Positions 10,001 through 61,000 of a stretch of 64,000 nt of DNA are shown in pieces. The DNA comes from Owenia fusiformis (taxonomy: Eukaryota > Annelida > Polychaeta > Sabellida > Oweniidae). Both the position numbers and the translations under genes were made by a program. The stretch's first letter is position 1. The number at the start of each line of letters is the position of its first letter. Location of the stretch: assembly GCA_903813345.2 (NCBI GenBank), contig CAIIXF020000007.1, positions 38,982,671 to 39,046,670 of the forward strand, written 5' to 3'. The notes under the pieces are model-generated. The model saw only the letters and a program-made list of their open reading frames with translations. It did no database searches and was not told the DNA's origin.

Positions 10001-12747
10001 TATATATTCTAAAAATCCCCAGAGTGCATACTTCATTCAAGGAGGACTTAAGATTTTATATTATTTTTCTATTTCCATGTTTACCATTTTTATTATTTGG
10101 GAGAATTTAGACACTCTTCCATCATTTTTGCACTTTAAATCCTTTCTTACTTAACCAAATTATAACACATCGCGGATCTTTTGGGGATATTATATTATAT
10201 ATTATTGAGATCATAAGGAATAGATTGGTAGATCTAATGTACACGTTGCTTGTAATTTTGTCACCATCTATAGATCTGATTCTAACTTTAAATCCCTTTA
10301 AATAATTACCGACATAATCATGACCAATAAGATGATATCCTGATAGTTTATTATCTTTTAAATGAAGTGTTATATTATGGAATAGTCCCTCATTTTGGTT
10401 CCTGCAAAAAATAACTGCATATCATTATACTTTAGCCTGATGAACTCAACCACCTACCCCGATCAGAAGTTAGACTTTGACGTAGTGTACGACCCCAAGG
10501 ACATAAATAACAATGGGATTGACCTGGAGGAAGCTATTCGTCACAATGTCACTGAATGCTTGAAAAATCTCGATATCAATGGTGTGGATGTAAAGAATGA
10601 AAGTGTTGACTCTATAGGAAATGGGGTTGATAAAAGTATGTATGCTTCGAAGGAAAGATGGGGTCGTAATGCACATTCTAGCACATTAGGAGTATTTTTG
10701 AGCGTGAATTCATATTATCCTATATAATGTCTTATTAGTTTAGACTATACTATAGCTGTTATTTCACATCATAACCGCCGGTTGTTGATTATGAATTTAT
10801 AGACCAAATAGTATACCGAACGAGTACTTATATTTATAGATGACCTATGCGACAACAACCCAACCTATTGTCAAGACGAGCCATTCTATGTTTGTTTCAC
10901 AAACTCAACTAACGTATTGTGCATGTTCAAATGTTCTCCAACATTGGTACCTTGTGATAACACTCATATATGTGACATCAACATCGAGGGTGCTGAACCT
11001 CAAGGGGAATGTGTGTAAGTAATGCAGCACATACTTTACATTTATATGTACACTCCTCTTCCATGTTCAATTTATATACACATTCCCCCTCTATGTTCAA
11101 ATGTTCTCCAACATTGGTACCTTGTGATAACACTCATGTATGTGACACAACGTTGAGGGTTCTGGGCCTTTAAGCGGATGTGTGTAAGCATTTCAGCACA
11201 TACTTTTTTTATATGCACTCCCCTTCATAAGTTTGGATCAAACGTTTTCCTCGTCCAGTATTTAATTTTGTTCCTTATTTATAATAAATCGGTAATTTAT
11301 GCATATGATATTTCTCTTAAATCTTAAAACACACAAAAATCCTTTAATAAGTGATCTTATTGGGAGTTCCGGTGGCCAAAAAACTATATCAAAGGGCCTA
11401 CTCTTCATCCAACTTAGAGAAAAATAGCACATAACATAATATAGGCTAAACTAAATATAATGTCGTTTTTATTGCAGATGTGATGAACCAACTAACATCA
11501 ATCTAGTAATCTTCAATAACTGGTGTGTACACAGGATAACTTTCTTCGCAGTAGTCATCACCATCATTGCTGTCTTTGTGGCCCTCATTGTTGTTCTCTG
11601 CGTCTGCCTCATTTGTAGACGCAGGCGCAAGAAACAGCATGTAGACGAGAGCATCAATACAGAGTAAGTCTAGAAGTCATTTCATACGAGATGGATACGA
11701 TATTTTGACAATGTATAATCACAAGAGGTTTCTACTATTATTTGCTTACAATTTACACATAATAGTTTTGTTTTGCATATATTAGATATAAAATAATGGA
11801 TATTACAAGTGTATTCTCATTTCGTATTTAGTCTCAGAGTATGGCACCTTTTTATTTGACTAAATTGTTTAAACAACACTCACTATTTAAACAATAGAAC
11901 AAAGCACACTACACAACAGGAACTAATCTAATCTGACTTTTTATACTCTCTCGTGTTTATAGTCCTATGTACCCAGTGCAAGTTCAAAATGAGATGTATG
12001 GTCATGGTGATTTCGAACAGAAACGGTCTTCATTGTATCCTCCCGTATACACAGTTGCACCGATAGTTGCCCTCAATACACTGGGATCTCCAGACGATCA
12101 CGTCGACGGGAGAGGTAGATTTGATGGTGGATCAAGCTCTCGTAATGTAAGTAAATAGCTCGCTTTAAAAGATGTCATCACTGCGAGCTATGCTCGCAAT
12201 TTCTAAACCTACAAAATTATACTAAATTTTGCGAAATGTGTTTTACACGATTCATGTATGACAGTACATTTTTCAAGTGTTATTCATCTAACGTATGAGC
12301 ATTTCGATATTTTATAGAGATACTTTCCCGAATCTGAGAGCAGAGGACATCATATAGACAACGGAAGGTTTTCAGAATCTATTAGACAATATAGTCACTA
12401 TGACAACCATGACTTCTCACAAAACGCCGATTATGCAGACACGCTAAAAAATGTAAGACTATAGAAACATATATTGAAACGATAAGTAAATGAAATGGCA
12501 TGTATCATTGATACTTACCACACATGTTTCTAAAAATAATATTGCTAGTTTAGATCATTGAAAACTATATTAACTAATTAACGTTGTTACAAATATATAA
12601 ACCTATAAAATACATTGAAAGAAGAAAGCGTCAAGTGGATCACTGAAATGTGTTTTAAACGTCGTATTCATTTATTTTTAGTTTCACATTGAACGACCCC
12701 ACATCTACAAGAGTACAACATATCCGACTCACGTACTTGAATTATAA
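1023..12747 (+). CDS. Gene A: trefoil-mucin-like single-pass membrane protein (spliced, 5' end uncertain)
   Basis: Proposed coding exons: 1023-1061, 1376-1540, 2415-2441, 3845-4129, 5875-7623, 8387-9265, 9492-9577, 9760-9815, 10436-10635, 10840-11014, 11478-11663, 11963-12146, 12318-12452, 12682-12747. Joined, they keep one open frame of about 1,410 residues ending in TAA. Order along the protein: end of a leader, trefoil 1 (about residues 14-68), a Ser-rich linker with the furin-type site RVKR, trefoil 2 (to about 172), 13-residue N-glycosylation repeats, trefoil 3 (ending near 755), TTDPTT mucin repeats (756-1048), an SEA-like region (1049-1162), a Cys-rich region (1163-1221), a transmembrane helix, and a tail of about 130 residues. 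It is inferred to sit in the plasma membrane with a long glycosylated ectodomain, like epithelial mucins. All joints agree in phase. The first exon with the start codon was not found with confidence. Function is inferred only from architecture. Confidence 0.8.
1376..1540 (+). CDS. Gene A exon: trefoil domain 1
   Basis: A class 1-1 exon encoding a P-type trefoil domain. The six cysteines fall in the family order: LCD, VDC, EAC, the adjacent pair GCC, and KWC. Trefoil domains are compact three-loop modules stabilised by three disulfides, common in mucosal secreted and surface proteins. The acceptor is cgttttag and the donor G|GTACAC. Here the residue before the last WC is Lys instead of the usual Pro. 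Confidence 0.85.
2415..2441 (+). CDS. Gene A exon: short Thr-rich linker
   Basis: A 27-nt class 1-1 exon (acceptor tttttaccag, donor GTAGGT) encoding ERATTLQTT. Genes B and C each have a 27-nt class 1-1 exon after their trefoil exon, so length and position match. It could be skipped without changing the frame. Confidence 0.5.
3160..3740. repeat. Four imperfect direct repeats of about 120-145 bp
   Basis: Lies in the gene A intron. A GC-rich GGGCGGGCGGC stretch (3169-3190) is followed by four divergent copies, each starting like ACGATTC.AGGAAAACCA and ending GCGGCCATCTTGC, at about 3209, 3355, 3480 and 3602. Old tandem duplication; no coding potential seen. Confidence 0.6.
3845..4129 (+). CDS. 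Gene A exon: Ser-rich linker, furin-type site and trefoil domain 2
   Basis: A class 1-1 exon. The first third encodes a Ser/His-rich stretch with imperfect repeats of HSSSV type. It is followed by NRVKRS (codons 3943-3957), a match to the R-x-K-R cleavage consensus of furin-like convertases. Then comes a trefoil domain: SICIF, LDCG, TECW, the pair FCCF and VPWCF supply the six cysteines. The exon ends with a sequon (NAT) before the donor GTAACG. Confidence 0.85.
4307..5757. mobile_element. Non-autonomous DNA element with terminal inverted repeats
   Basis: Sits in the gene A intron. The left end TCGGGTGGGCATAAAAA and the right end TTTTTATGCCCACCCGA are inverted copies flanked by TA, so a Tc1/mariner-like TA target duplication is possible. 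No transposase was recognised. Short ORFs inside (such as 4520-4846, Cys/Lys-rich) resemble nothing known to me. A second foldback lies within it at 5087-5575. Confidence 0.65.
5087..5575. repeat. Nested foldback with GC-rich arms
   Basis: The ends ACACCCCAGTCACATTTG and the inverted AAATGTGACTGGGGTGT enclose GC-rich stretches (GCGGCCGC, CTACGCTCGCC and similar) unlike the surrounding A+T-rich intron. It appears to be an independent palindromic insertion inside the larger element. Confidence 0.55.
5875..7623 (+). CDS. Gene A exon: N-glycosylation-dense 13-residue repeats plus trefoil domain 3
   Basis: A 1,749-nt class 1-1 exon. After about 75 non-repetitive residues come roughly 30 units of 13 residues, for example PNVTIPFDNTTLP and LNVTLPFDNATVS. 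Many are grouped in threes to give a 39-residue (117-bp) higher-order unit. Nearly every unit carries two N-x-T sequons, so the region could be heavily N-glycosylated as well as O-glycosylated on Thr. A Thr-rich spacer then leads into trefoil 3 (SICVI, INCAG, FDCW, YCCF, VPWCF). The donor is CCAG|GTACGA. The 39-bp period keeps other frames and the opposite strand open; those are not genes. Confidence 0.88.
8387..9265 (+). CDS. Gene A exon: TTDPTTVAQ mucin-type tandem repeats
   Basis: A class 1-1 exon (acceptor aactgtag, donor CCCG|GTGAGT). It encodes about 26-28 copies of a 9-residue unit (27 bp), TTDPTTVAQ, with variants TTDQSTVAQ, TTDLTTATQ and TTDPTTAKQ, then a less regular Thr/Ser stretch. 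This is a classic O-glycosylated PTS domain. It lacks the N-x-T sequons that dominate the preceding exon. Copy number is probably polymorphic. Confidence 0.85.
9492..9577 (+). CDS. Gene A exon: start of SEA-like juxtamembrane region
   Basis: Acceptor ttttattttag, donor AAG|GTAAGA, phase 1 in and phase 0 out. Encodes MNFSLEFKSNRTDETLKEEL and flanking residues: a beta-strand-like segment followed by a helix-like segment. Together with the next two exons it forms a region of about 110 residues. Confidence 0.7.
9760..9815 (+). CDS. Gene A exon: middle of SEA-like region
   Basis: A 56-nt exon (acceptor atatttcag, donor AAAAG|GTATTT), phase 0 in and phase 2 out, encoding IAHCFNESGVPVKRIDIK. The phase fits both neighbours exactly. 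One sequon (NES). Confidence 0.65.
10436..10635 (+). CDS. Gene A exon: end of SEA-like region
   Basis: Acceptor atactttag, donor AAAA|GTATGT, phase 2 in and phase 1 out. Encodes a strand (DFDVVYDP), an acidic loop (DINNNG), a helix (EEAIRHNVTECLKNL) and a final strand-like stretch. The alternation and the position between mucin repeats and membrane resemble SEA modules of membrane mucins. The usual GSVVV self-cleavage motif is not seen, so the family assignment is tentative. Confidence 0.68.
10840..11014 (+). CDS. Gene A exon: Cys-rich (possibly EGF-like) juxtamembrane domain
   Basis: Acceptor tatttatag, donor TGTGT|GTAAGT, phase 1 in and phase 2 out. About 58 residues with eight cysteines, including DLCDNN, TYCQD, YVCF, LCMFKC, VPCD, HICD and ECV. 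Spacing is not a clean EGF match, so it is called Cys-rich. Genes B and C lack this exon and the SEA-like exons. Confidence 0.72.
11094..11190 (+). pseudogene. Decayed partial copy of the gene A Cys-rich exon
   Basis: A stretch starting ATGTTCAAATGTTCTCCAAC repeats the 3' half of exon 10840-11014 and its donor (GTGTGTAAGC), about 180 bp downstream. It has substitutions, a small deletion and an in-frame TAA, so it can no longer code in the parent frame. It shows a local duplication of exon end plus splice site, the same kind of event amplified massively in gene B. Confidence 0.65.
11478..11663 (+). CDS. Gene A exon: juxtamembrane motif and transmembrane helix
   Basis: Acceptor attgcag, donor GA|GTAAGT, phase 2 at both ends. 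Encodes VIFNNWCVHRITFFAV, then a hydrophobic helix (VVITIIAVFVALIVVLCVC) and the basic stop-transfer RRRRKK. The IFNNWC.HR.TFFAV motif is shared almost exactly with genes B and C and is the best-conserved part of the family. Cysteines at the inner leaflet (LCVCLIC) are candidate palmitoylation sites. Confidence 0.88.
11963..12146 (+). CDS. Gene A exon: cytoplasmic tail, part 1
   Basis: Acceptor gtttatag, donor AAT|GTAAGT, phase 2 in and phase 0 out. Encodes about 62 tail residues with MYPVQVQNEMYGHGD and SSLYPPVYTVAP. The latter contains PPVY, a match to the PPxY ligand of WW domains. Confidence 0.75.
12318..12452 (+). CDS. Gene A exon: cytoplasmic tail, part 2
   Basis: Acceptor attttatag, donor AAT|GTAAGA, exactly 45 codons in phase 0. 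Rich in Ser, His, Tyr and Asp (SIRQYSHYDNHDF). It sits where genes B and C have their GMYDNDIYDSSP exon, and YDN is found here too. Confidence 0.75.
12682..12747 (+). CDS. Gene A last coding exon: conserved C-terminus
   Basis: Acceptor tatttttag, phase 0, 21 codons then TAA. Encodes FHIERPHIYKSTTYPTHVLEL. The pattern .I.RP.I.K..TYP.HVL recurs in the last exon of gene B, which supports both exon calls. Confidence 0.8.
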   Translation, partial: FHIERPHIYKSTTYPTHVLEL

Positions 12748-17290: not shown

Positions 17291-17890
17291 GGGGATCAAC
17301 ACAATATGTCATACATATTTATAGTCCATAGGCGTTCCAAAGGGACAACACAATATGTCATACATGTTTATAGTCCATAGGCGTTCCAAAGGGTCAACAC
17401 AATATGTCATACATGTTTATAGTCCATAGGCGTTCCAAAGGGTCAACACAGTGTGTCATACATATTTATAGTCCATAGGCGTTCCAAAGGGTCAACACAA
17501 TATGTCATTCAAATTTATAGTCCATAGGCGTTCCAAAGGGTCAACACAATATGTCATACATATTTATAGTCCATAGGCGTTCCAAAGGGACAACACAATA
17601 TGTCATACATATTTATAGTCCATAGGCGTTCCAAAGGGTCAACACAATATGTCATACATATTTATAGTCCATAGGCGTTCCAAAGGGACAACACAATATG
17701 TCATACATATTTATAGTCCATAGGCGTTCCAAAGGGTCAACACAATATGTCATACATATTTATAGTCCATAGGCGTTTCAAAGGGTCAACACAATATGTC
17801 ATACATATTTATAGTCCACATGCGTTCCAAAGGGACAACACAATATGTCATACATATTTATAGTCCATATGCGTTTCAAAGGGTCAACAT
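17291..17890. repeat. Minisatellite, 49-bp unit, about 12 copies
   Basis: Near-identical units containing CAACACAATATGTCATACAT and TATAGTCCATAGGCGTTCCA. The start of successive units steps by 49 bp (for example 17342 to 17391). Intergenic. Confidence 0.9.
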
Positions 17891-20395: not shown

Positions 20396-22001
20396 ACATC
20401 CTAAAACTCAGCGACTTTTTTACCTTGAGAAGATCATTGAAGGTCAAATCTATAGTCAGATTTGAACTTCTGAGATCCCGTAGATAGTTTTGAACAACAA
20501 TTTAATCAATCTGAAGCAAGTTGAAGAAAAATACCTTTTTGTGTTTTTTTGCCGTTGAAAATGCATTTAAGTAAAATTAAACAGTATTTGTTAAGTTATT
20601 GGAAGTTGCAAAAGTTGTTACAGACACCATCCCCCAATCACCAAGGTTATTGACCTTGAAATCACCAAGGTTATTGACCTTGGAAAAGTCATTGAATATC
20701 GAATTTTAAATCTTAGTTCAGATTTGAACTTTGAAAACTTGTAGATGATTTTGAAAAAGGTTGAAGTCAGTAAAACAAACAGTATTTGTTATGTTATTGG
20801 AAGTAGTTGCAATGATTTGTTATAGACGCCATCCGCCGATCGCCAAACTTTTTACCTTGAAAAGGAAATTGTCAAATATGAAATCTTAAGTCAGATTTGA
20901 ACTTAAAAATAAAGATGTAGATAATCTTAAAAAGTGAAGTCAGTTTCATAATGAGCGTTCCCCCATCCGCAGTCAATCTTAGATCATGTTGCCCTGATCA
21001 TGATAAAGCTTAATCAATTCTGGACTTTAGTGAATATTAGCATGAATGGTTTTTGAACTAAGTATTGTGGCCACTATCCCTCAAATTCGCGCGATTCTTG
21101 GCTACTAATCAAAATTGATTTGAAGAGAGGAGCAGATCCCTTAATAAATCCACTGTATCATCTTTAGCTCTTTGGGCATTTCCTCGAAATATTTAACTCT
21201 AATGTAATTTTTAATAAAGTTGCAAGGTTTTTTTATTACTTGATTTAAATAAGGTTGGTACGACATGTATTATTGAACACTTTATTCAATTACCTCTTCA
21301 GAGAAGTATTGGTTGTTTAAAAAAGTTAACACACCCAAGTCCACTTTCAAAGATAGCAGGTATCGCGAAAACCCTTTGAAATCAATGGAACGCCTAACTG
21401 AATGATCAACAATTTCCAATTCAACTTGGTTTTGTCTTTGACATTCATATAATAAGATGTACAACGAATACCTATCTGTGATTCAGTAAGATAATGAATG
21501 CTTGAAGAATAGATAAATGCTTGACTTGGTAGTATTCCAACATAAAAAAGTGGGAAAGGGAGAATAAAAAAAATATCTAAAATTTGGATCGGATTATCAT
21601 AGTACTAGTAATTCTGTCGCCACAATTTGCACAAATATTCAGGAACATGCAAAACGATCTCAAAGGTATTCATGAAACACCCTGTATAGAGCGGTTATTA
21701 ATAGAAATTAATAGAAAATAGCATGAATATCATTGGATTATCATTCTGACAAAGCATTATAACGTACGTAAACACTTTTCATTCGACACTTTTAGGGTAA
21801 TATGGTCCGGAATGGCTTATAAACTGGTCATAATTTTGGATTTTTATGTCGACCCGGACATCAAGTCTTGCCATCGGACTTAATCAACTAAGAAATTATG
21901 GTCCATCATACTTATTGTTCTAGGAAACATAGTTCCATATGTTTTCCAAGACTATATTTACGTTGACAAATAATGTACTTATTACAGATTAGTGTAGCAG
22001 A
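20396..22001. other. Intergenic DNA upstream of gene B
   Basis: 20400-20960 repeats the motifs of 15590-16010. The rest is unremarkable A+T-rich DNA that must hold the gene B promoter and upstream 5' UTR exon. TTACAG at 21982-21987, 14 bp before the gene B ATG, is a likely acceptor of a 5' UTR intron. Gene C has TTTCAG at the matching place. Confidence 0.4.
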
Positions 22002-22053
22002 ATGTCAGATCATCGTGTTCTTTGCTGCAGGCCATTGCTGGTAATCATGTCAG
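22002..22053 (+). CDS. Gene B exon 1: start of signal peptide
   Basis: ATG at 22002, 17 codons plus one base, donor TCAG|GTAGAT. Encodes MSDHRVLCCRPLLVIMS. Gene C has an exon of the same length with the same ending (LLLIVS), and both are preceded by GCAGA before ATG, which supports this start. Confidence 0.82.
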
Positions 22054-25000
22054 GTAGATAGATGAATAAGCAGAAAAACTGGAGATACCATTTTAAATAC
22101 GGTTGAATAAGCGAATCGCTATTTCTAAATGACAGAGAATTGACCAATGCACGACGTTATCGAAATTCAAATGGAAAAACGATTTAACACAATACCAGTT
22201 AAATCAAACGATCCCGTAGAACATATAGCTATCGTCATTGTAAGATATAAGTTATGTTGAAAGAACTGTCACCTCACTAACTTTTCTAAACATCTCAAAA
22301 TCAAGGTTTACGAAAAAGGCCAAACGCTGACCACCGATCAGTCACCCTCCACCGTCGGGCAAACGGGGTCGCCGGTTTGCTGTCGGTCTTTTACATAAGA
22401 ATAAATAGAGATTATCCTATATATGAGGTTCAGGATATTGGGATAATCCCAATATCCTGAACCGACTATAGGATAATATGTTTATCCCATACCAATCTCT
22501 GTCATCTGGTTCACACAAGGGCGTTACAATACCCGGGACTTTATCGGTTCGTGCAGTACTTGTTTGTGATAGCGCCCTCTGTAGGTCACTGTGCTTAATA
22601 GCCTACAGTAATTGATCAAATCTTTAAACAAAATCGATAAACACGTTATACACTTCCTATATCCTTAGAAATTAGCATGTATTTATGGATTGTGTTTTCG
22701 AACAAGGCTCGACCCAGACCAATAGGGAAATCCTTATGCTAATTAGTATGACGTCATATTTTCCTGGGGAATCCTAGATTTCAAAGCCTCAGTCTGTTAT
22801 TGTGTCAAATGTAAACGTTCTTTTGCAGACAGAAAATTGACAGATTAGCTTTTAACTTTCAGCTTTTGATGTTTAAATATTCTATATTTCTACCGGACTT
22901 CTTGCTGAATATCATAAAATGTTATAACTTGATTTGGACCTGACCATTGCCTGATTGATCATTCAGAAATGTTGATTGTGATTCATGATTGATTGGCAAG
23001 AAAAATAATTCCTATTGTTTTCCAGCGAAGTCAAAATGTTAGACTACAGCATGAGTTATAATGTCGAGTTTGCATCGTGTTAAATTCTACAACGCCCCCC
23101 CCCTCATGATGCTTACTTTATCCCCGACCTTTACCCCCTTGCTGATTCGTAAGTGAGGTATGCCCGGAGGTATGCTAGGTTAGGGCCCGGGGGTTGGGGG
23201 TTCGTGCCACAGTCATAGACCAGTCTTACTTCAAATGTCTAATCCAATCTTGACCCCCAGAGTTATCGAAGTTCTTCTTAGCCCTCTGGAATTTCCGGTA
23301 ATTGGCTATAGAGACTCGAGTAAGTTGGAAGAAGAATAAAGAATGGACGGGGCCAGGCCGAGGGGATTGGTGCCCTACTAGCCCCACCAATTCACAAGCA
23401 TACACATAAGAGATTGATTAAGTGGATGCTCCTTCCCTTTTTTAAATCATCATACAGATCCCGATTGTCTGTGTTTTCTCCATTGTCGTTTACAGTCATT
23501 ACGCGAACGTTACAAATTATGAACAAAAATGCGAGCGGCGATTATGACGTGGCGGGCAGATGTACTATATCTGCCCGCTCGGAGCGGGACGTAAAGCTAT
23601 ATCTGCCCGCTGATGAAAATATAAGTTTTTACAAACCGGCTTTATGTACCTGTAACACGTCCAAGTATGGGATAAATATAAATAGATACAAAATAAGAAG
23701 AGGAAAATAAAACTCAAAACAAAGCGTACCTTTACAAGGTCGTGATTAATTTGTTAAACCATTTCACATCACAATGAAAAATGCGCATGAAAACAAAACT
23801 TCGTCGTTGTCTGTAATGCCATATTTTTAAGTGATGTCAGAGTTGTTAGAAAATCCATTTCATTCTTTTTCAGTCACTTTGAATCATGGAAAAGGCACGA
23901 AACATTACATTGTGTTCACTATGAAAATAACAAAACTTACATTTCCGGTCTTTAATCACGTTGTCATCTTTTGATCATCAAGATTGTACCAAAATGTTGA
24001 TTTCTCAGTAAAACATTAGGATAAATTCCGGTAGAAACGATAGGTTAAAATGTTTGCTTGTCTTTCGTTGTAATTAATGGTAATATAAATATTGATAAAT
24101 GGGAAAATATTCGTTTGTGCAGCGTTTCTTTTCATTGTACCATTTTTTGTGTTGTAGGTATTGTTGGCATAGCTTTGATTCAACAAGTGTCTAGTCAAAC
24201 TTTCTGCGAACCCGTTAGTAAGTTATTTAAAATTCATTGTTTCAACCGTTCCAACCCGTTTAATCAATACTGAATTTACAAAGTACTTGTGTACTGAACA
24301 TGAAAAATGTCAAATGAAAATTAAATATTACTAAGACAGAAAAACACTTATTTCAGGTCCAATTTTTCGGACATGCACTTTTGATATCAATCATTACAAC
24401 CGAAGTGATTGTGGTGACAAGGGCATAACAAAGGAGATGTGTGAACACCATCAGGAGTGCTGCTGGGATAAGACTGTCCCTAATGTGCCATGGTGTTACT
24501 GCGCTAGGAATATATTAGGTTGTACTACTTGAATAAGTATATAAGACTGTCCCTAATGTGCCATGGTGCTTCTGCGCTAGGAATATAATAGGTTGTACTT
24601 CTTGAATAAGTATATAAGACTGTCCCTAATGTGCCATGGTGCTTCTGCGCTAGGAATATATTAGGTTGTACTTCTTGAATAAGTATATAAGACTGTCCCT
24701 AATGTGCCATGGTGCTTCTGCGCTAGGAATATAATAGGTTGTACTTCTTGAATAAGTATATAAGACTGTCCCTAATGTGCCATGGTGCTTCTGCGCTAGG
24801 AATATATTAGGTTGTACTTCTTGAATAAGTATATAAGACTGTCCCTAATGTGCCATGGTGCTTCTGCGCTAGGAATATAATAGGTTGTACTTCTTGAATA
24901 AGTATATAAGACTGTCCCTAATGTGCCATGGTGCTTCTGCGCTAGGAATATATTAGGTTGCACTTCTTGAATAAGTATATAAGACTGTCCCTTATGTGCC

Positions 25001-28000
25001 ATGGTGCTTCTGCGCTAGGAATATAATAGGTTGTACTTCTTGAATAAGTATATAAGACTGTCCCTAATGTGCCATGGTGCTTCTGCGCTAGGAATATATT
25101 AGGTTGCACTTCTTGAATAAGTATATAAGACTGTCCCTAATGTGCCATGGTGCTTCTGCGCTAGGAATATATTAGGTTGTACTTCTTGAATAAGTATATA
25201 AGACTGTCCCTAATGTGCCATGGTGCTTCTGCGCTATGAATATATTAGGTTGTACTTCTTGAATAAGTATATAAGACTGTCCCTAATGTGCCATGGTGCT
25301 TCTGCGCTAGGAATATATTAGGTTGCACTTCTTGAATAAGTATATAAGACTGTCCCTAATGTGCCATGGTGCTTCTGCGCTATGAATATATTAGGTTGTA
25401 CTTCTTGAATAAGTATATAAGACTGTCCCTAATGTGCCATGGTGCTTCTGCGCTAGGAATATATTAGGTTGTACTTCTTGAATAAGTATATAAGACTGTC
25501 CCTAATGTGCCATGGTGCTTCTGCGCTAGGAATATATTAGGTTGTACTACTTGAATAAGTATATAAGACTGTCCCTAATGTGCCATGGTGCTTCTGCGCT
25601 ATGAATATAATAGGTTGTACTTCTTGAATAAGTATATAAGACTGTCCCTAATGTGCCATGGTGCTTCTGCGCTAGGAATATATTAGGTTGTGCGCCTTGA
25701 ATAAGTATATAAGACTGTCCCTAATGTGCCATGGTGCTTCTGCGCTAGGAATATATTAGGTTGTACTACTTGAATAAGTATATAAGACTGTCCCTAATGT
25801 GCCATGGTGCTTCTGCGCTAGGAATATATTAGGTTGTGCGCCTTGAATAAGTATATAAGACTGTCCCTAATGTGCCATGGTGCTTCTGCGCTAGGAATAT
25901 ATTAGGTTGTACTACTTGAATAAGTATATAAGACTGTCCCTAATGTGCCATGGTGCTTCTGCGCTAGGAATATATTAGGTTGTACTACTTGAATAAGTAT
26001 ATAAGACTGTCCCTAATGTGCCATGGTGCTTCTGCGCTAGGAATATATTAGGTTGTACTACTTGAATAAGTATATAAGACTGTCCCTAATGTGCCATGGT
26101 GCTACTGCGCTAGGAATATATTAGGTTGTACTACTTGAATAAGTATATAAGACTGTTCCTAATGTGCCATGGTGCTACTGCGCTAGGAATATATTAGGTT
26201 GTACTACTTGAATAAGTATATAAGACTGTCCCTAATGTGCCATGGTGCTTCTGCGCTAGGAATATATTAGGTTGTACTACTTGAATAAGTATATAAGACT
26301 GTCCCTAATGTGCCATGGTGCTTCTGCGCTAGGAATATATTAGGTTGTACTACTTGAATAAGTATATAAGACTGTCCCTAATGTGCCATGGTGCTTCTGC
26401 GCTAGGAATATATTAGGTTGTACTACTTGAATAAGTATATAAGACTGTCCCTAATGTGCCATGGTGCTTCTGCGCTAGGAATATATTAGGTTGTACTTCT
26501 TGAATAAGTATATAAGACTGTCCCTAATGTGCCATGGTGCTTCTGCGCTATGAATATATTAGGTTGTACTACTTGAATAAGTATATAAGACTGTCCCTAA
26601 TGTGCCATGGTGCTTCTGCGCTAGGAATATATTAGGTTGTACTACTTGAATAAGTATATAAGACTGTCCCTAATGTGCCATGGTGCTTCTGCGCTAGGAA
26701 TATATTAGGTTGTACTTCTTGAATAAGTATATAAGACTGTCCCTAATGTGCCATGGTGCTTCTGCGCTATGAATATATTAGGTTGTACTTCTTGAATAAG
26801 TATATAAGACTGTCCCTAATGTGCCATGGTGCTTCTGCGCTAGGAATATATTAGGTTGTACTACTTGAATAAGTATATAAGACTGTCCCTAATGTGCCAT
26901 GGTGCTTCTGCGCTAGGAATATATTAGGTTGTGCGCCTTGAATAAGTATATAAGACTGTCCCTAATGTGCCATGGTGCTTCTGCGCTAGGAATATATTAG
27001 GTTGTACTACTTGAATGAGTATATAAGACTGTCCCTAATGTGCCATGGTGCTTCTGCGCTAGGAATATATTAGGTTGTACTACTTGAATAAGTATATAAG
27101 ACTGTCCCTAATGTGCCATGGTGCTTCTGCGCTAGGAATATATTAGGTTGTACTACTTGAATAAGTATATAAGACTGTCCCTAATGTGCCATGGTGCTAC
27201 TGCGCTAGGAATATATTAGGTTGTACTACTTGAATAAGTATATAAGACTGTTCCTAATGTGCCATGGTGCTACTGCGCTAGGAATATATTAGGTTGTACT
27301 ACTTGAATAAGTATATAAGACTGTCCCTAATGTGCCATGGTGCTTCTGCGCTAGGAATATATTAGGTTGTACTACTTGAATAAGTATATAAGACTGTCCC
27401 TAATGTGCCATGGTGCTTCTGCGCTAGGAATATATTAGGTTGTACTACTTGAATAAGTATATAAGACTGTCCCTAATGTGCCATGGTGCTTCTGCGCTAG
27501 GAATATATTAGGTTGTACTACTTGAATAAGTATATAAGACTGTCCCTAATGTGCCATGGTGCTTCTGCGCTAGGAATATATTAGGTTGTACTTCTTGAAT
27601 AAGTATATAAGACTGTCCCTAATGTGCCATGGTGCTTCTGCGCTATGAATATATTAGGTTGTACTACTTGAATAAGTATATAAGACTGTCCCTAATGTGC
27701 CATGGTGCTTCTGCGCTAGGAATATATTAGGTTGTACTACTTGAATAAGTATATAAGACTGTCCCTAATGTGCCATGGTGCTTCTGCGCTAGGAATATAT
27801 TAGGTTGTACTTCTTGAATAAGTATATAAGACTGTCCCTAATGTGCCATGGTGCTTCTGCGCTATGAATATATTAGGTTGTACTTCTTGAATAAGTATAT
27901 AAGACTGTCCCTAATGTGCCATGGTGCTTCTGCGCTAGGAATATATTAGGTTGTACTACTTGAATAAGTATATAAGACTGTCCCTAATGTGCCATGGTGC

Positions 28001-31000
28001 TTCTGCGCTAGGAATATATTAGGTTGTGCGCCTTGAATAAGTATATAAGACTGTCCCTAATGTGCCATGGTGCTTCTGCGCTAGGAATATATTAGGTTGT
28101 ACTACTTGAATAAGTATATAAGACTGTCCCTAATGTGCCATGGTGCTTCTGCGCTAGGAATATATTAGGTTGTACTACTTGAATAAGTATATAAGACTGT
28201 CCCTAATGTGCCATGGTGCTTCTGCGCTAGGAATATATTAGGTTGTACTACTTGAATAAGTATATAAGACTGTCCCTAATGTGCCATGGTGCTACTGCGC
28301 TAGGAATATATTAGGTTGTACTACTTGAATAAGTATATAAGACTGTTCCTAATGTGCCATGGTGCTACTGCGCTAGGAATATATTAGGTTGTACTACTTG
28401 AATAAGTATATAAGACTGTCCCTAATGTGCCATGGTGCTTCTGCGCTAGGAATATATTAGGTTGTACTACTTGAATAAGTATATAAGACTGTCCCTAATG
28501 TGCCATGGTGCTTCTGCGCTAGGAATATATTAGGTTGTACTACTTGAATAAGTATATAAGACTGTCCCTAATGTGCCATGGTGCTTCTGCGCTAGGAATA
28601 TATTAGGTTGTACTACTTGAATAAGTATATAAGACTGTCCCTAATGTGCCATGGTGCTTCTGCGCTAGGAATATATTAGGTTGTACTTCTTGAATAAGTA
28701 TATAAGACTGTCCCTAATGTGCCATGGTGCTTCTGCGCTATGAATATATTAGGTTGTACTTCTTGAATAAGTATATAAGACTGTCCCTAATGTGCCATGG
28801 TGCTTCTGCGCTAGGAATATATTAGGTTGTACTACTTGAATAAGTATATAAGACTGTCCCTAATGTGCCATGGTGCTTCTGCGCTAGGAATATATTAGGT
28901 TGTACTTCTTGAATAAGTATATAAGACTGTCCCTAATGTGCCATGGTGCTTCTGCGCTATGAATATATTAGGTTGTACTTCTTGAATAAGTATATAAGAC
29001 TGTCCCTAATGTGCCATGGTGCTTCTGCGCTAGGAATATATTAGGTTGTACTACTTGAATAAGTATATAAGACTGTCCCTAATGTGCCATGGTGCTACTG
29101 CGCTAGGAATATATTAGGTTGTACTACTTGAATAAGTATATAAGACTGTTCCTAATGTGCCATGGTGCTACTGCGCTAGGAATATATTAGGTTGTACTTC
29201 TTGAATAAGTATATAAGACTGTCCCTAATGTGCCATGGTGCTTCTGCGCTATGAATATATTAGGTTGTACTTCTTGAATAAGTATATAAGACTGTCCCTA
29301 ATGTGCCATGGTGCTTCTGCGCTAGGAATATATTAGGTTGTACTACTTGAATAAGTATATAAGACTGTTCCTAATGTGCCATGGTGCTACTGCGCTAGGA
29401 ATATATTAGGTTGTACTTCTTGAATAAGTATATAAGACTGTCCCTAATGTGCCATGGTGCTTCTGCGCTATGAATATATTAGGTTGTACTTCTTGAATAA
29501 GTATATAAGACTGTCCCTAATGTGCCATGGTGCTTCTGCGCTAGGAATATAATAGGTTGTACTTCTTGAATAAGTAAAGTGACACTTTTAAGTATATGCC
29601 TCTACTGTATAGAAGTAGGAGAATATATTTAAAACATGAATTGAAGTAATGATATATAGATTTTACATTATGAGACAATAAAGGACAAATGAAAATTGTT
29701 TTTATTATTTACAGATATCATAACTCCCGATCCCATGACTGGTATGTATAAAACTTATATTCGTCAAAAATTACTCAACTGAGGTTGTGCATATATGGAG
29801 TACTTTATATTGTTAAAGTTCCAATTAGGGGGTTGCTATTGGCCAAATAGTTATACTGGATTATAACCTGTTGAATCTACATGCATGACCATTCATTATT
29901 ACTGACACTTTTGTGACAGATGAACTAACAACAATAAACACGGCAACTACATCTACAGTTAAAACAACAGCTGAAACAAAAGCTGAAACTATTACATCAA
30001 ACACGGATGCAGCGACAGCTAGAACTTCACATATAAACACAGTAACATCCACAGCTGAAATGTCAACTACAAGTGACACTACAGCTACAAATATAAACAG
30101 AGTTTCCACTGATACAATAACAATGACAGCCATTACGATAGCTGAAGCTTCATCTCCCAAAACTGCAGACACACCAACAGCATCAACACCATTCAATGCT
30201 GTTGCAAGCAGTCCCAGTGCAGTAGGAGGTGTACAGAAGTGTGTTGAGCCAGAGTTTATAGTGATATTTAACAACTGGTGTCCCCATAGGCAGACGTTCT
30301 TTGCTGTTACAGTTGCAATTGTTCTCATCTTGGTCCTCGCAATATTGATGTTGTGTGTATGTTTGGTATGTAGGAGGCGAGACGGTAAAAGTGATGTCCA
30401 CACAAACGGCACGTACGTAACAAGTGTAGCGAAGTTAAGTCCATCTTTTCCAAACCTGAAATTAATGTAGTTTAGTATATTTATTTATAAGAGAAAACAT
30501 TTTTTCCCAAGTTCAATCAATGAGGTTCTGAGGTTTCGATATCGAAATGCCGAAAATCTTAATTTTGAGCTGGGCAGAGTCGAAATCCAATAAAATATTC
30601 AGAAATCTTATTTACTAAAGTTGGACTAAAATACGTGTTCATTTTAATAAGCAAAAGTAAGTAAAAAATAGTCATGATTTTCTGCACACAAAGCTTGAAT
30701 GTTTACCGAAAGTCTGAGAATTTTGAAGATTGAGGTGGGAAAGGAATGTTTAGACAAAACCTCTAAGCCTTGTCTCGTGAGCTCTGGATGTACAATTTAA
30801 TTATCCAATTTAACTCATTACCTAATAAATGTCCAAAACGCAAACCTGGACTATCGAGACAATGAAGTCAATCAAGTAACACAAAAATGTACTGTACCTC
30901 TAATGCGGCTTCTTTATTATGGGCTTTACTATTTTCTGCCTTATTTGGCATTATCTTGCCCTTAATCGGTATGATTAAGACATAATAGTTCACCATGTGA

Positions 31001-33503
31001 TATTTTAGGATGTTGCCTAATTTGGGGTACAACAACGCTTTGTATGGTTATGATAGTAAACCTGAGATATTAGGAAACATTCCAATTCTCCAGACTCCAG
31101 TTGCATCTCATAGAGTGTCAAATATGTCTCTACAGGGACGATATATTGGAGATGAACAGGTGTATGAGTCAGCTGCAACTGTAAAGGTAATAATTGCAAA
31201 ATAATGTTTAAATTAGTAATAATGCAAAGTACAGATATCTATAAGCGTAGGATAGATGTTCATATTTATATCATGGCTGCAAAGATATTTTGAAAGAATC
31301 GAAACCATCGATTACCATTCGACTGTTACAAAAGTCCTATTCAGTGGTTTCGATTTATTTCGATACTGCACAACGATTTTTCAAATATTCATTTTCGGGT
31401 CTCGTTCTTATGGCTCAGAGGTCAAAAGTATCAAATATATCGACTCGTGGATATCAGTATTCTCATTCATTGGCGATCGCTGTGGTCACTCGTGAAGATA
31501 TCAATATCACTCACGTATATAAATCATATTTTTCAAAACCAAAATATATTCCTAAAACATTACATTTCCTTTTATATAGAATATTGTATTATCATTGTAT
31601 TGCATTAACTATTTATCACATATTCAGGATTGGTACTCTGATACCGATAGTCAAAAAGATCTAATGGATCAATATGGATCGCGTCCTCTTGGTTTCCAAG
31701 GTAAAAATCCCCCCTCTCAGTCTTTCTACGGGATGTATGATAATGATATATATGACAGTTCGCCAATGCCTGGACTGAACCAAGAACAGGTAAGTTATGT
31801 GTTGTCGAATAATGCTTGATATAGAACTAAATGTAACTGGATGAGTGTGTAAAAATATTGTACACATTCATTCAGTTACAATTAGTTTAGACATCCGCAA
31901 TATACTAGCAACAAGTGCACTTGAAGAATCCGTATACTTTTCCTTATGATCGAAAAGGAAATGTTAAAGTATGAATATCAAATGCTTGTTATGTATAAGT
32001 AACAAACTTATTAAGTTTCATAAAAAATGATTATACCAATAGTTCAAGCGATTTATTTTTACGATTTTAGTTAAAGATGCATTATACCATAGGTTTCTCG
32101 CCCAAATGATGTTCCTTTGTTATTGCTTATATAATATTTCACATACCATGGATATATCTTGAGAATAACTTATGTGTATATTATTGCCGAAATATCGAAA
32201 TAATCAACAGAACAACCAAGTGTCTTCCCATTTCGCCCCTTCCCACTTTGCCCCTTCCCATTTGGCCCCTCATTTATTCCCATTTGGCCCCTTCCCATTT
32301 CGCCCCTACCCATTTTGCCCCTTCCCATTTTGCCCCTATCCCAAATTGCCCCTTTCCCATTTCGCCCCTCTTCCATTTCGCCACTGTCCCATTATGTCCC
32401 CTTCCCATTTCGCCCCTTCCCATTTCGCCCCTTCCAAAGTGGCCCCTTCCCATTTCGCCCCTCATTTATTCCCATTTCGCCCCTTCGCAATTGGTCCCTT
32501 TCCCATTTCGCCCCTCGTTCATTCCTATTTCGCCCCTTCCTATTTCGCCCCTCATTTATTCCCATTTCGCCCATTCCCATTTTGGCGAAATTGGAAAGGG
32601 GCAAAATGGGACTATGAGGGCCAACAATGGAAGGGGCAAAATTGGAAAGGAGTGAAATGGGAAGGGGCGAAATGGAGAAGGGGCGACGTGGGAAGGGGCG
32701 AAATGGGACGGGGCGATAAGGGAAAGGGGCGATATGGGAAGGGGGCAACACGGGAAAGGGGTGAACTGGCAAAGGGGCAAAATGGGAAAGGGGCGAAATG
32801 GGAAAGGGGCCTATTGGGAAGGGGCGAAATGGGAATAAATGAGGGGCGAAATGGGAAGGGGCGAAACGGGAAGGGGCGAAATGGGAATAAACCGAACAAC
32901 CAACCTCCAGAATTAAACACAATCGATTCCTCGGCTAGCGAGTGGAATCCCTGGTGATTCACAGGAAACGCGCCATGAACCAAGCAGCCAATCAGGTTCA
33001 TGATAAACAGATTCAACGACCAATCAGATAAACGGGCGATTTTCCCGGTATATTTAAACATCAGATAGAATTAATTTCCGTGAAAATAATTAGATCGGTC
33101 AGCACAATCGCAAAATTAACACTGAAAGCGGGGGATTTGAGACTTCTTCTTTGGTAAGTAGATGGTTGAATATGTGGTTAAGCTCAATATGCAAAAAGGT
33201 CCAGAGGGGTCTTGATTGTGCTATTCTATGGTATAGAGCCTCTTTAATCATGCAGTCTCAGATTATGGTCCCGGGGATTCCCCTCTGGGGTGCCCTAATG
33301 TCAAAAGTTTGCCGGCTACACAACAATATATACGCGACCTTCAGATCCATTGGCTGCCATACAAATGCTTTGCTTGGTATGTTATACCAATAAATTTATA
33401 TTTAACATAATTGCAGATATTGATCAGTCGACCAACGATACGGAAAACGCTAACATATCCAAGCCACGTGTTGCAGGGAAATAATAGGTCTAATATACAC
33501 TAG
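22002..33503 (+). CDS. Gene B: trefoil, Thr-rich stalk, single-pass membrane protein (406 residues)
   Basis: Coding exons: 22002-22053, 24158-24217, 24357-24518, 29715-29741, 29920-30412, 31009-31186, 31628-31789, 33417-33503. Joined length is 1,221 nt including the stop, one open frame. Order: signal peptide from two exons (hydrophobic core PLLVIMSGIVGIALI, likely cleavage after QQVSS), one trefoil domain, a nine-residue linker exon, a Thr/Ala-rich stalk of about 110 residues, the juxtamembrane motif IFNNWCPHRQTFFAV, a transmembrane helix, a basic stop (CRRRDGK), and a Tyr-rich tail. It is inferred to be a mucin-like surface protein with signalling capacity. It lacks gene A's extra trefoils, N-glycan repeats, SEA-like and Cys-rich parts. 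The intron after the trefoil exon is filled by a satellite built from that exon's own end. Confidence 0.88.
22054..24157. other. Gene B intron 1, with two small palindromes
   Basis: Contains a compact palindromic element at 22396-22490 (centre GGATATTGGGATAATCCCAA). A GC-rich hairpin lies near 23550-23615 (GCGGGCAGAT...ATCTGCCCGC, third copy nearby), with a poly-C run at about 23092. The open frame at 23414-23710 over the hairpin is not recognised. Confidence 0.5.
24158..24217 (+). CDS. Gene B exon 2: end of signal peptide
   Basis: A 60-nt class 1-1 exon (acceptor gttgtag, donor A|GTAAGT) encoding IVGIALIQQVSSQTFCEPV. The matching gene C exon reads FAGLALIQEVTSEGSTCEPV. CEPV gives an unpaired Cys just before the trefoil in both. 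Confidence 0.85.
24357..24518 (+). CDS. Gene B exon 3: trefoil domain
   Basis: A 162-nt class 1-1 exon (acceptor tttcag, donor TTAG|GTTGTA). The trefoil cysteines are in RTCTF, SDCG, EMCE, the pair ECCW, and VPWCYC (one extra Cys). The donor GTTGTA is weak; the gene C donor (GTTGTG) is equally so. The last 51 bases of this exon plus 22 intron bases are the founder unit of the downstream array. Confidence 0.9.
24541..29576. repeat. Exon-derived intronic satellite, 73-bp unit, 69 copies
   Basis: Starting from the founder (24468-24540), the string ATAAGACTGT recurs at exact 73-bp steps from 24541 to 29505, with no length change seen. Each unit holds the last 51 bases of the trefoil exon, the splice donor and 22 intron bases. 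Because 73 is not divisible by 3 and each unit contains TGA, the array does not code. Most units have TTC where the exon has TAC (PWCYC). Variants (GTGCGCC, GACTGTTCCT, GCTATGAAT) mark a 1,095-bp higher-order repeat. Confidence 0.97.
29715..29741 (+). CDS. Gene B exon 4: short linker
   Basis: A 27-nt class 1-1 exon (acceptor tttacag, donor G|GTATGT) encoding IITPDPMT. Gene C has a 27-nt exon at the same place, EITSAVPTA. Good support by paralogy despite the size. Confidence 0.75.
29920..30412 (+). CDS. Gene B exon 5: Thr-rich stalk, juxtamembrane motif, transmembrane helix
   Basis: Acceptor gtgacag, donor AC|GTACGT, phase 1 in and phase 2 out. A Thr/Ser/Ala-rich stalk with almost no hydrophobic residues is followed by CVEPEFIVIFNNWCPHRQ, the helix TFFAVTVAIVLILVLAILML, CVCLVC and RRR. 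In gene C the block from KCVEPE to TFFAV is identical. Cysteines in CVCLVC are candidate palmitoylation sites. Confidence 0.9.
31009..31186 (+). CDS. Gene B exon 6: cytoplasmic tail with Tyr motifs
   Basis: Acceptor attttag, donor AAG|GTAATA. Encodes LGYNNALYGYD, SLQGRYIGDEQVYES and neighbouring residues. The gene C exon keeps LGYNNALYDY and SLQGRYMGNEQVYGSA. YNN fits the Y-x-N pattern bound by GRB2-type SH2 domains when phosphorylated; that role is inference. Confidence 0.85.
31435..31535. mobile_element. Partial palindromic element of the 14.5 kb family
   Basis: CTCGTGGATATCAGTATTCT and TCACTCGTGAAGATATCAAT resemble the CGAGTGAGCG core and flanking GATATCAATATCA of the 15.1 kb element. Intronic in gene B. 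Confidence 0.4.
31628..31789 (+). CDS. Gene B exon 7: cytoplasmic tail
   Basis: 54 codons, phase 0 both ends (acceptor tattcag, donor CAG|GTAAGT). Encodes DQYGSRPLGFQ and SFYGMYDNDIYDSSPMPGLN. The gene C counterpart keeps YGSRPLGFQ and GMYDNDIYDSSPM exactly. Confidence 0.88.
32226..32891. repeat. Inverted minisatellite of a 15-16 bp unit
   Basis: The left arm (to about 32585) is a run of CCCATTTCGCCCCTT-type units, nearly all pyrimidine on the + strand. The right arm repeats the inverse, GGGGCGAAATGGGAA. Together they form a GC-rich hairpin of over 600 bp within the last intron of gene B. Apparent ORFs on both strands are repeat artefacts. Confidence 0.92.
33417..33503 (+). CDS. Gene B last coding exon
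   Basis: Acceptor aattgcag, phase 0, 28 codons then TAG. Contains RPTIRKTLTYPSHVL, matching the C-terminus of gene A (RPHIYKSTTYPTHVL), which identifies it despite the long intron. Gene B runs eight residues longer (QGNNRSNIH after HVL). Confidence 0.8.
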   Translation: MLISRPTIRKTLTYPSHVLQGNNRSNIH

Positions 33504-39639: not shown

Positions 39640-40610
39640 GTACCCGTTCCACTGGAAAAAAGGGTTACAAGGACTACAAGTATTCAAATTAAGTTTCGAT
39701 AAGACAAAATATATCCGAACTTCAGTGGCAAAAAGGGTTACAAGAACCACAAGTATTCAAATTTAGTTTCGATAAGACAAAATATATCCGAACTTCAGTG
39801 GCAAAAAGGGTTACAAGAACTACAAGCATTCAACTTAAGTTTCGATACGACAAAACATGTCCCCGTTTCACTGGCAAAAAGGGTTACAAGGACTACAAGT
39901 ATTCAAATTAAGTTTCGATAAGACAAAATATATCCGAACTTCAGTGGCAAAAAGGGTTACAAGAACTACAAGCATTCAACTTAAGTTTCGATACGACAAA
40001 ACATGTCCCCGTTTCACTGGCAAAAAGGGTTACAAGAACCACAAGTATTCAAATTAAGTTTCGATAAGACAAAATATATCCGAACTTCAGTGGCAAAAAG
40101 GGTTACAAGGACTACAAGCATCCAACTTAAGTTTCGATACGACAAAACATGTCCCCGTTTTACTGGCAAAAAGGGTTACAAGGACTACAAGTATTCAAAT
40201 TAAGTTTCGATAAGACAAAATATATCCGAACTTCAGTGGCAAAAAGGGTTACAAGAACCACAAGTATTCAAATTTAGTTTCGATAAGACAAAATATATCC
40301 CAACTTCAGTGGCAAAGAGGGTTACAAGAACTACAAGCATTCAAATTAAGTTTCGATACGACAAAACATGTCCCCGTTTCACTGGCAAAAAGGGTTACAA
40401 GAACTACAAGTATTCAAATTAGTTTCGATCAGACAAAATATATCCCAACTTAACTTGATTACTTGTATTTCTTGTAACCCTTTTTGCCAGTGAAGTTGTG
40501 ATATGTTTTGTCTTATCGACTACTTAATTTGAATAATTAGTAGTTATTGTAACCATTTTTGCCAGTGAAGTTGGGATATATTTTGTCTTTTCGAAACTTA
40601 ATAGCATTCA
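39640..40610. repeat. 73-bp minisatellite, 11 direct units then inverted copies
   Basis: AGGGTTACAAG recurs at exact 73-bp steps from 39661 to 40391. Two sub-types alternate (one with ATATATCCGAACTTCAGTGG, one with ACATGTCCCCGTTTCACTGG). From about 40445, two units appear inverted (CTTGTAACCCTTTTTGCCAG), closing a foldback. The unit is unrelated to the gene B 73-bp repeat; the equal length looks like chance. Confidence 0.88.
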
Positions 40611-58000: not shown

Positions 58001-61000
58001 TAACCTATCTGATGCACTTTCAAGAGAACATGTATTACAAAAACTCACTGAAATAAAAAACGCTCAATTAAATAATCAACAATTCCCAATAGGTGTATAT
58101 TGTTCATGTGACCTAATGAACTTAACAACCTAAATGTTGCAGACATTAGTAAGTAAGTTAGTTAATAAACAGTGAAAGTAAAGGCTTTGGGTTGGTATCG
58201 ATATGCTGAGCTGAATCCAACATGGATTTTCTCTTTAAATCTAGTATTGAAAAGAATCTGTAAAGACACGATCCTTTATGTTAATTTCAACCACACTTGG
58301 GTAGCAACACAATAGAATGAACTGTTTTATTTTAAAAAATATCCAGTGTTTTTTCCAATATTTTTCTGTTGGTTTTAAAGAATGAACACTTTGCATTAGC
58401 TTGCCAAAACCGATGTAGCACAAACGACGATTGACTGTCACATGCATTGCACTTAAGCTGAACTAATTATACCATATTCACTCTTTCAATAGTTGAATAG
58501 TAAACACAAAGGAAATCAAACTTTAAACTGTACATGCCACGTAAAATGCAATGCACTTAAGCTGACTTAATTACACCCACTCACTTCTCAATGAGCTTAC
58601 CTCAGTCAATACAAAAGAAATGGAGTTTTCCTAAAATTGGACCATTGGGCATTTAAAGTAACACACCAACGATGTATCTAAAATCTAAAAGCTCAAAAAG
58701 TATTAGATGACTATATGTTGTCTAAAAAGAGAATTAAAAAAATTGTGGCCGAGAGTCAAATAAAAAAGAAAAGAAACATTAGACCCGACCGGAGATCGAA
58801 CCACCGACGTGCTGGATTCGGACTATCAAAATCTGACGTCATAGTCCAGCGCCTATATCCATTCGGCAAACAGCGAGCTCTTGGATCCCAATAAAATATT
58901 TAGCTACATAATTAAATTAAGAAAACAGTCGAATCACTGCATAAGATTTATAAAAAAATAGTCAAAAATCATTTTAATAATATTTAAATATACATTTAGC
59001 CAAATAAAAGCTAAAATCAGAATTAATGATGTTAATCCAGTTTTCATTTAGATAATCTATTTCCTGTTATGACTCGTAAAAAAACATGGCTCCCAAAGAA
59101 TATTTCTTGCATCCAATTTTCAAAATGATATATATCCATGGATCAGTTATTTTTGGCACCTGAACCCATCCTAATTAAAAGGTAAGACTATTTTCTTGAA
59201 TTCGCCTATTCATTCAGCGATTTAATCGTAAACTTTTTCTTGAAAAAAATTCCAGATATGTTATTTTTTTAGCAGAAATTGCCTGCTTCCCCCTCCATCC
59301 CCAATATCTGATTGCCGGGCGTGATACAGAAACATATGTGTTATCGAGTAATTCTTCATGTGAGCTTCAAGAAAGCATGGACTTTTTTCAATGCCCATTT
59401 TTCGTACACAATATGTTCAGATTCAGTAAAGAATATTCACAGAATATGAACAGAGGCAATAAGGAAAGTACAGATCCTCCAAAAGTATGTACAGAGACAA
59501 TACAGAAAGTCTATTTTGTACAGAATAAATGCAGAGATCAATGGGTACGGATTCCTCACAGTTTTCTCCATAAAAATCTATAATGATTCGTTGAAGAAAA
59601 TATATACAGGTAGTTTAGGAATAAACGTTTCGGGAGGAATAAACTGTTTATTATTGAATATTGAATAGCTTAATACCCAGGTAAAACATAATGATGAATA
59701 TTAGACATACAATACCTACAGAGTCTTCAGCAAGTTTATGGAAAATCATAGGGTCATTTTTACGACATAACCTTTCTTACTAATGCTCAATATGATCCAC
59801 CTACCAAGTAATAAGACTCAGACATATTAGAATCAATGCAGAATACGGTATCTTTCAAAAAATTGTGTCTAGCGTAAAGGCATCTGGCTTCTTGAAACCC
59901 CTGCTAGAGACTCACCTTTTTCGTTTCAGATGATTTCTTAAAGACCTGTATCTTTGACACCAACCATTACACCAGAGACAATTGCGGTCATTCATCAGAA
60001 ACGAGCTGTATACAAGCAAAGTGTTGTTGGGATAACACTGTTCATGAAGTACCATGGTGTTACTGCCACAAGAACATATTAGGTTGTGCATCTTTAAGTA
60101 GTTATATGACATTGTGTGTGATATGACAAGTTAACTTAATGAAGTAGTTTAAGATTTATTTATATTTTTATCACATGTATTTTTCCTATTACAGAGATCA
60201 CATCTGCTGTCCCTACGGCTGGTACGTATAAAATCAACACTCATACTTTATGGTACTGCAGAACTGCAGCTATGTATTGTTTAAGTATTTTCTATTATTC
60301 ACTTCAGTTTCAATTAAAGAGCTGAGATTAATTAACCAGTTGTTTTTGCCAAAAAATATTTTTATTATATTTAGTTAACTCTGCATGCCTTGTTATCTAA
60401 CAGCACCAACTACCACCGCAACAACGGATTGGACCACAGCAGAGAGTACAACTGCAACCACAGCTGAAAGTACAGTTGCAACCACAGCTGAAAGTACAGT
60501 TGCAACCACAGGTGAAACTAAAGCTGGAAGTACGATTGCAATCACAGCTGCAACTGAAGCTGAAAGTACAGTTGCAACCACAGCTGAAACTAAAGCTGGT
60601 AGTACGATTGCAACCATAGCTACAACTGAAGCTAACACTGAAACAGTTTCAAACACAGCTGAGATCCCATCTGTCAGTACAAATAATACCGCAGCAACCA
60701 TTAAACCCCCAGTTTCCACTGATATGATCACACTTACAGTTGTAGAAATAACTGATGCCACAACTACATCTCAAACGACAACTACAATTATAGCATCAAC
60801 ACCACGTACTGTTGCTATAAGCACTTCAAGTGGAGCAGGGGGAGAACAGAAATGCGTTGAGCCAGAATTTATAGTGATCTTTAACAACTGGTGTCCCCAT
60901 AGGCAGACGTTCTTTGCTGTCACAACTGCCATTGTTTTTATCTTGGTCCTCGCAATGGTGATGGTGTGTGCATGCTTGGTATGTCGTGGAAAAAATAATA

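Follow-up and report, generated by a model that had tools for sequence, protein, structure and literature searches.

A young intronic minisatellite in a trefoil gene of Owenia fusiformis, probably grown in blocks from an exon end and its splice donor

How does an intron come to hold 69 near-identical copies of its own splice donor, and which of these donors is used? This question is raised by a gene, here called gene B, of the polychaete Owenia fusiformis. The gene lies in a stretch of 64,000 nucleotides (contig CAIIXF020000007.1 of assembly GCA_903813345.2, forward strand, positions 38,982,671 to 39,046,670), referred to as the window, within which all positions are counted. A tandem array of 73-bp units begins within the trefoil exon of gene B, crosses the donor and continues into the following intron. 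The first unit, which includes the true donor, is termed the founder. With a probability of about 0.75, the array is a young intronic minisatellite that arose from the end of the trefoil exon and grew by duplication of blocks, with the founder donor still mainly used.

The array spans positions 24468-29576 and is described by Tandem Repeats Finder (TRF) with a period of 73, 70.0 copies, 97% matches and 0% indels. When it is cut at 73-bp steps, all 70 units keep the register, which bears out an earlier note on this DNA that counted a founder and 69 copies at exact steps from 24468 to 29505 without an indel. The last unit covers 29505-29576, and its base 73 already belongs to the flank. The same note divided the unit into 51 exon bases, the donor and 22 intron bases. 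The exon part stands, but the right flank indicates an intron part of 21 nt and a single junction base. The exon-side context, thought to be the same in all decoy donors, is near-identical, but none of the 69 copies matches the 51 exon bases of the founder exactly (1-4 differences). Founder and copies vary at 12 of 73 positions and form 15 unit types, the founder's own and 14 among the copies, and the mean pairwise identity of the 69 copies is 97.6%. Minisatellites, or variable number tandem repeats (VNTRs), are head-to-tail units of about 10-100 bp on a kilobase scale, while satellite DNA forms long arrays at many sites or on a megabase scale. With 70.0 head-to-tail copies of 73 bp over 5.1 kb, the local array is better called a minisatellite than, as before, a satellite. 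Within the 64-kb window, the unit is found in this array only, apart from an 81% match in an exon of a second gene, C (blastn, query 22001-24567). A search with an exact 30-base pattern had 0 matches in genome_contigs (bacteria, archaea) and viral_contigs, which are not animal collections and hence little informative. Each unit junction (24538-24545 and then every later one) also makes a TATA-box-like word, TATATAAG, with 69 occurrences in the array and none elsewhere on the + strand of the window.

The origin of the unit becomes apparent from gene B and its paralogue C (Table 1). The four listed exons of gene B, which do not include the first coding exon, join into one open frame whose stop follows a stretch rich in Thr and a hydrophobic, membrane-like segment, and the gene is mucin-like. 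Its spliced product matches the trefoil (P-type) domain PF00088 (E=2.3e-10; 40.6 bits vs a cutoff of 21), which, together with the paralogous exon in C, supports the trefoil exon as modelled earlier. Gene C has the exon order of B: an exon at 52855-52917, the trefoil exon, a short exon and, last, one that encodes the same membrane-like segment. A 196-column stretch of the last exon of B shows 84% DNA identity to C. The trefoil exon ends in CATATTAG followed by GTTGTG in C vs ATATATTAG followed by GTTGTA in B; 40 of the 51 bases of this tail are common to both genes, and the donor position is the same. Since C has the homologous exon and donor without an array, the exon border and the donor are old and shared. 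With C as a control, the proposed origin from the end of the trefoil exon, the intronic location and the 69 repeated donors are upheld. The intron part of the last unit continues into a flank that can be aligned with the intron of C. Because that intron carries no array, gain in B is the most likely origin of the array, rather than loss without trace from C.

Table 1. Positions of the array, of the exons and introns of gene B, and of the homologous region of gene C in the window
Feature	Position	Strand	Basis or remark
Gene B exon, end of signal-peptide-like segment, donor GTAAGT, phase 1	24158..24217	+	Frame and borders from sequence; counterpart in gene C at 52855-52917
Gene B trefoil exon, 162 nt, phase 1-1	24357..24518	+	PF00088 on spliced product; paralogous exon in C; frame check
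Founder unit: 51 exon bases, donor and 22 intron bases (the last probably a junction base)	24468..24540	+	Spans exon/intron border 24518/24519
Gene B intron, 5196 bp; 159 bp without the 69 copies	24519..29714	+	
In-frame TGA if founder donor is unused, before first copy	24530..24532	+	
69 tandem copies of the 73-bp unit with 69 decoy donors	24541..29576	+	
15-unit block copy 1, units 17-31	25709..26803	+	Lag-15 analysis
15-unit block copy 2, units 32-46	26804..27898	+	Lag-15 analysis
15-unit block copy 3, units 47-61	27899..28993	+	Lag-15 analysis
27-nt gene B exon after the array	29715..29741	+	Frame check; counterpart in C
Gene B last exon: Thr-rich stretch, membrane-like segment, stop	29920..30470	+	Frame check
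Paralogue C trefoil exon, 153 nt	59930..60082	+	Borders read by eye
Paralogue C intron, 112 bp, donor GTTGTG, no array	60083..60194	+	No TRF row there

The copies themselves retain traces of how the array grew. All 69 carry C at site 29, where the founder and gene C have T, so the copies appear to descend from one derived unit. At site 31, the founder and gene C have A and 60 of the 69 copies have T. At both sites, the exon state of the founder looks ancestral. The units nearest to the founder (22, 37, 52 and 63, each one base away) are found in the middle and right of the array, not beside it. At a lag of 15 units, 30 of 54 pairs agree in unit type, a value reached at any lag of 1-35 in 0 of 2000 shuffles. 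Between units 17-47 and units 32-62, 28 of 31 pairs are identical and three show a single difference. A 15-unit (1095-bp) block is thus present three times, and the longest exact repeat in the array is 1094 bp. Read in order, the unit types show dimer patterns on the left side of the array and trimer patterns on the right. We infer block duplication, by unequal exchange or replication errors, and such events suggest that the array is unstable. The boundary base aside, just two substitutions occur in a single copy each (units 7 and 34), which, with the tripled block, supports the recent expansion proposed earlier. The accompanying idea of ongoing homogenisation, understood as uniform gene conversion, is not supported, as variation is arranged in blocks and the exon of the founder, which has kept 29T beside 69 copies with 29C, bears no mark of conversion by them. 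The exact spacing can be explained by recent origin and block duplication. Substitutions usually exceed indels, and the roughly ten visible substitution events predict about one indel, so that the absence of indels needs no special cause. Two forms of slippage were considered and rejected. Hairpin-driven slippage finds little footing in DNA folding, which is not clearly above that of shuffles (z of 0.02 for the founder, -1.26 for one copy, -0.13 for its other strand and -0.33 for gene C). Slippage between short direct repeats (ATAAG at 24468 and 24533) would give a unit of 65 bp, not 73.

The strength of the donors was computed as pairing energy against the 5' end of U1. The founder donor reaches -5.4 kcal/mol, compared with -14.0 for the consensus, while the five other donors of B and C range from -4.3 to -7.2 kcal/mol and the homologous donor of C is at -5.1. 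It ranks fourth among the six donors of both genes and falls within the best 8.3% of 3590 GT sites in the window. The description of GTTGTA as a weak donor thus holds for absolute U1 pairing in this model, but the donor is ordinary for genes B and C. A GT occupies the donor place in all 69 copies. The donor 11-mer is identical to that of the founder in 62 of them, with equal pairing, whereas four have GTTGTG (-5.1 kcal/mol) and three have GTTGCA (-4.0 kcal/mol). All 70 units also contain a second GT at position 70 that pairs almost as well (-5.0 vs -5.4 kcal/mol), so the number of candidate decoys exceeds 69. The predicted probability that a donor is unpaired in the RNA is 0.08 for the founder and on average 0.12 for the 69 decoys (range 0.07-0.47). 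It is 0.20-0.31 for the five other donors of B and C, the homologous donor of C being at 0.29, and 0.37 (standard deviation 0.18) for 200 random GT sites, of which 8.5% lie below the decoy mean.

The choice of donor would determine the protein, but the choice among the decoys would not. All 69 decoy donors encode the identical protein, ending in ...CYCARNILGCTT, because an in-frame TGA precedes the first copy, and from the second GT in the unit the same truncated product results in all 70 places. Extended transcripts, which the earlier note considered alongside circular ones, would, if made, all encode this one protein. At decoy 1, the distance from the TGA to the junction is 59 nt, and it is greater for the other decoys. 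The rule for mRNA decay is based on the distance from stop to junction, and decay of the decoy-spliced mRNA is possible. Skipping of the trefoil exon would keep the frame. Coding through the array was dismissed, since stops occur in all six frames and the longest open stretch has 35 codons on the + strand and 72 on the - strand.

The favoured explanation combines these features as follows. A tandem duplication across the exon-intron border of the trefoil exon, with one junction base, would have been the start, and the duplication of unit blocks, visible as patterns of 2, 3 and 15 units, would have extended the intron, about 0.16 kb long before, to 5.2 kb. The founder donor would still be the main one, the copies being removed with the intron; this is most likely because its use yields an exon of normal size (162 nt) and because it is the first to be transcribed. 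If the nearest copies served as decoy donors at a low level, the mRNA would grow by multiples of 73 nt, and the result would be one truncated, membrane-less trefoil product or decayed mRNA. The array would be nearly neutral and is probably tolerated. Several observations weigh against this explanation. The founder has no advantage over its decoys, neither in U1 pairing, which 62 of the 69 equal, nor in predicted accessibility, where it is at 0.08 and they average 0.12, so that only exon length and order would be left to explain its preference. Strong use of the decoys would likewise be compatible with the sequence. At intron site 60, the founder and 36 copies have A, whereas gene C and 29 copies have T. 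The founder therefore need not be ancestral everywhere, and exchange with the copies in its intron part is possible at this site. The locus lends itself to the study of donor choice as a natural experiment: 70 donors that are nearly identical, also in their exon-side sequence, compete within a single pre-mRNA and differ mainly in their distance from the upstream acceptor, and the array-free paralogue C, about 35 kb away, provides a control. The rules at stake are preference for the first-transcribed donor, for a certain exon length or for the intron-proximal donor.

Alternatively, the array may be a regulatory device, in which the decoys, or RNA hairpins hiding them, control by repeat number how much of the trefoil protein is membrane-bound and how much is truncated and secreted, or how often the exon is skipped. 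Such a device is unlikely, although the outcomes would be switch-like, with the founder leading to the membrane form, any decoy to the same truncated form and exon skipping to an intact frame, and although the copies carry 51 exon bases. A hairpin is predicted in the unit that pairs CCUAAU with AUUAGG at the donor. The predicted RNA folding has z-scores of -1.7 for the founder, -2.5, -1.4 and -3.9 for three single copies, and -3.5 and -2.7 for two unit pairs, and the low accessibility of founder and decoys compared with random GT sites speaks for a masking role as well. The hairpin is a lead rather than evidence of function, and the prediction holds equally for founder and decoys. Moreover, it is absent in C (z of 0.19) and modest in the founder, and values below the random mean are shared by the five other donors of B and C, so the array is not alone in its low accessibility. 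In the hairpin core, 24 of 129 possible single changes stabilise; among the six observed core variants, two belong to the strongest stabilisers, one is neutral and three destabilise, which makes selection for tighter donor-masking hairpins unconvincing. A search of positions 24000-31000 yielded no Rfam match up to E=1, and the window contains 0 tRNA genes. The human ABCA7 VNTR cuts both ways, as its length correlates with the skipping of exon 19, while retention of one unit is constant across VNTR sizes (PMC5954066), so that decoy use need not follow length. The narrower idea of a length-tunable switch, in which the number of exon-like, hairpin-masked decoys decides between a membrane mucin and a secreted trefoil-only form, is rated as quite improbable.

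It is very improbable that the copy number is partly or wholly an artefact of assembly. Near-identical blocks of 1095 bp are hard to assemble, and the number of 15-unit blocks may be wrong. However, the 14 copy types follow an ordered pattern that differs between the array ends (dimers vs trimers), and the block copies can be told apart by substitutions (units 34 and 58). The existence of the array is thus hard to attribute to assembly, its exact length being less certain.

Recursive or nested splicing, or the formation of a new intron according to the established model of AGGT duplication (PMC4974935), is extremely improbable, for although the exon part of the units ends in AG directly before GT, 58 of the 69 copies (those with 40G) have another AG 11 nt before, and the pyrimidine counts at the border AG (8/17, as at the trefoil acceptor of gene B) and at the AG of unit position 39 (11/17) fall within the 8-12 range of six B and C acceptors, this count is crude and covers pyrimidines only, and a new intron is superfluous where C has an intron at the same position without any array.

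Genes B and C (24158-30470 and 52855-61037) are two paralogous genes with a trefoil domain, a Thr-rich stretch and a shared membrane-like segment. Upstream of them, the set at 1432-11643 (labelled A, provisionally as one gene) comprises trefoil-like stretches at 1432-1530, 4015-4122 and 7464-7586 and a related membrane-like segment at 11476-11643; Pfam confirmed the trefoil in two of the three stretches, the two that were scanned. Tandem repeats in long open frames of mucin-like composition are present at 6151-7346 and 8401-9135, with periods of 78/117/195/312 and 27 bp, and a 49-bp array (12.1 copies, 95% matches, TRF) is present at 17296-17889. The region 39653-40607 contains a second array of period 73 (11 copies, 86% matches), with no evident relation to that of gene B, and after it, at 40441-40607, stretches in inverted orientation. 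A large inverted structure at 32220-32892 consists of TTCCCATTTCGCCCC-like repeats on one strand and then on the other. The fragment at 62133-62438 (- strand) is transposase-like, with Pfam DDE_3 below cutoff only (E=0.0089), and is presumably of mariner type.

The literature cited here contains several related systems. The closest precedent is the VNTR in intron 18 of human ABCA7, the first two bases of which are the donor of exon 18; its unit measures 25 bp and its alleles range from about 12 to 427 units (PMC5954066). Like the array of gene B, which adjoins an exon border, includes the true donor and repeats it in its units, it is an intronic array at an exon border with a donor within the units. 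Use of the donor one unit downstream leads to a frameshift and a stop, and retention of one unit amounts to 2 +/- 1%, if the paper's "respectively" is read so, unaffected by VNTR size, whereas skipping of exon 19 rises with it (PMC5954066). The low retention is a precedent for low use of decoys. In contrast to gene B, the ABCA7 unit starts at the GT, while here 51 of the 73 bases are exonic and the decoys thus carry exon-side sequence. Polymorphism and splicing were measured in ABCA7 (PMC5954066), whereas the array of gene B is known from its sequence; no sequence relationship between the two is claimed.

In human segmental-duplication genes, internal tandem repeats have on average 30-bp units repeated four times, and minisatellite expansion alters recently duplicated genes and may cause novel introns at exon-intron boundaries (PMC2812944). 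In gene B, by contrast, 69 copies were added to an intron that already existed. PMC4974935 describes intron gain from tandemly duplicated AGGT segments, with the Rogers model, ATP2A1 and the 24-bp repeats of fission yeast. There, too, a piece with AG directly before GT is duplicated, in some cases in several copies with an intron across them (PMC4974935); the intron of gene B was already there, being common to C, and the duplicates lie inside it. Tandem repeats likewise lengthen the gigantic introns of Drosophila kl-3 and kl-5, with megabases of simple satellite as opposed to 5 kb of an exon-derived unit (PMC6508621). Among the matches listed from the open-access literature, no second donor-bearing array besides ABCA7 was found, and the most directly phrased search gave 0 papers, which is no proof of absence. 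Two features set the array of gene B apart from the cases above: a unit that is mostly exon and a structure of 15-unit blocks.

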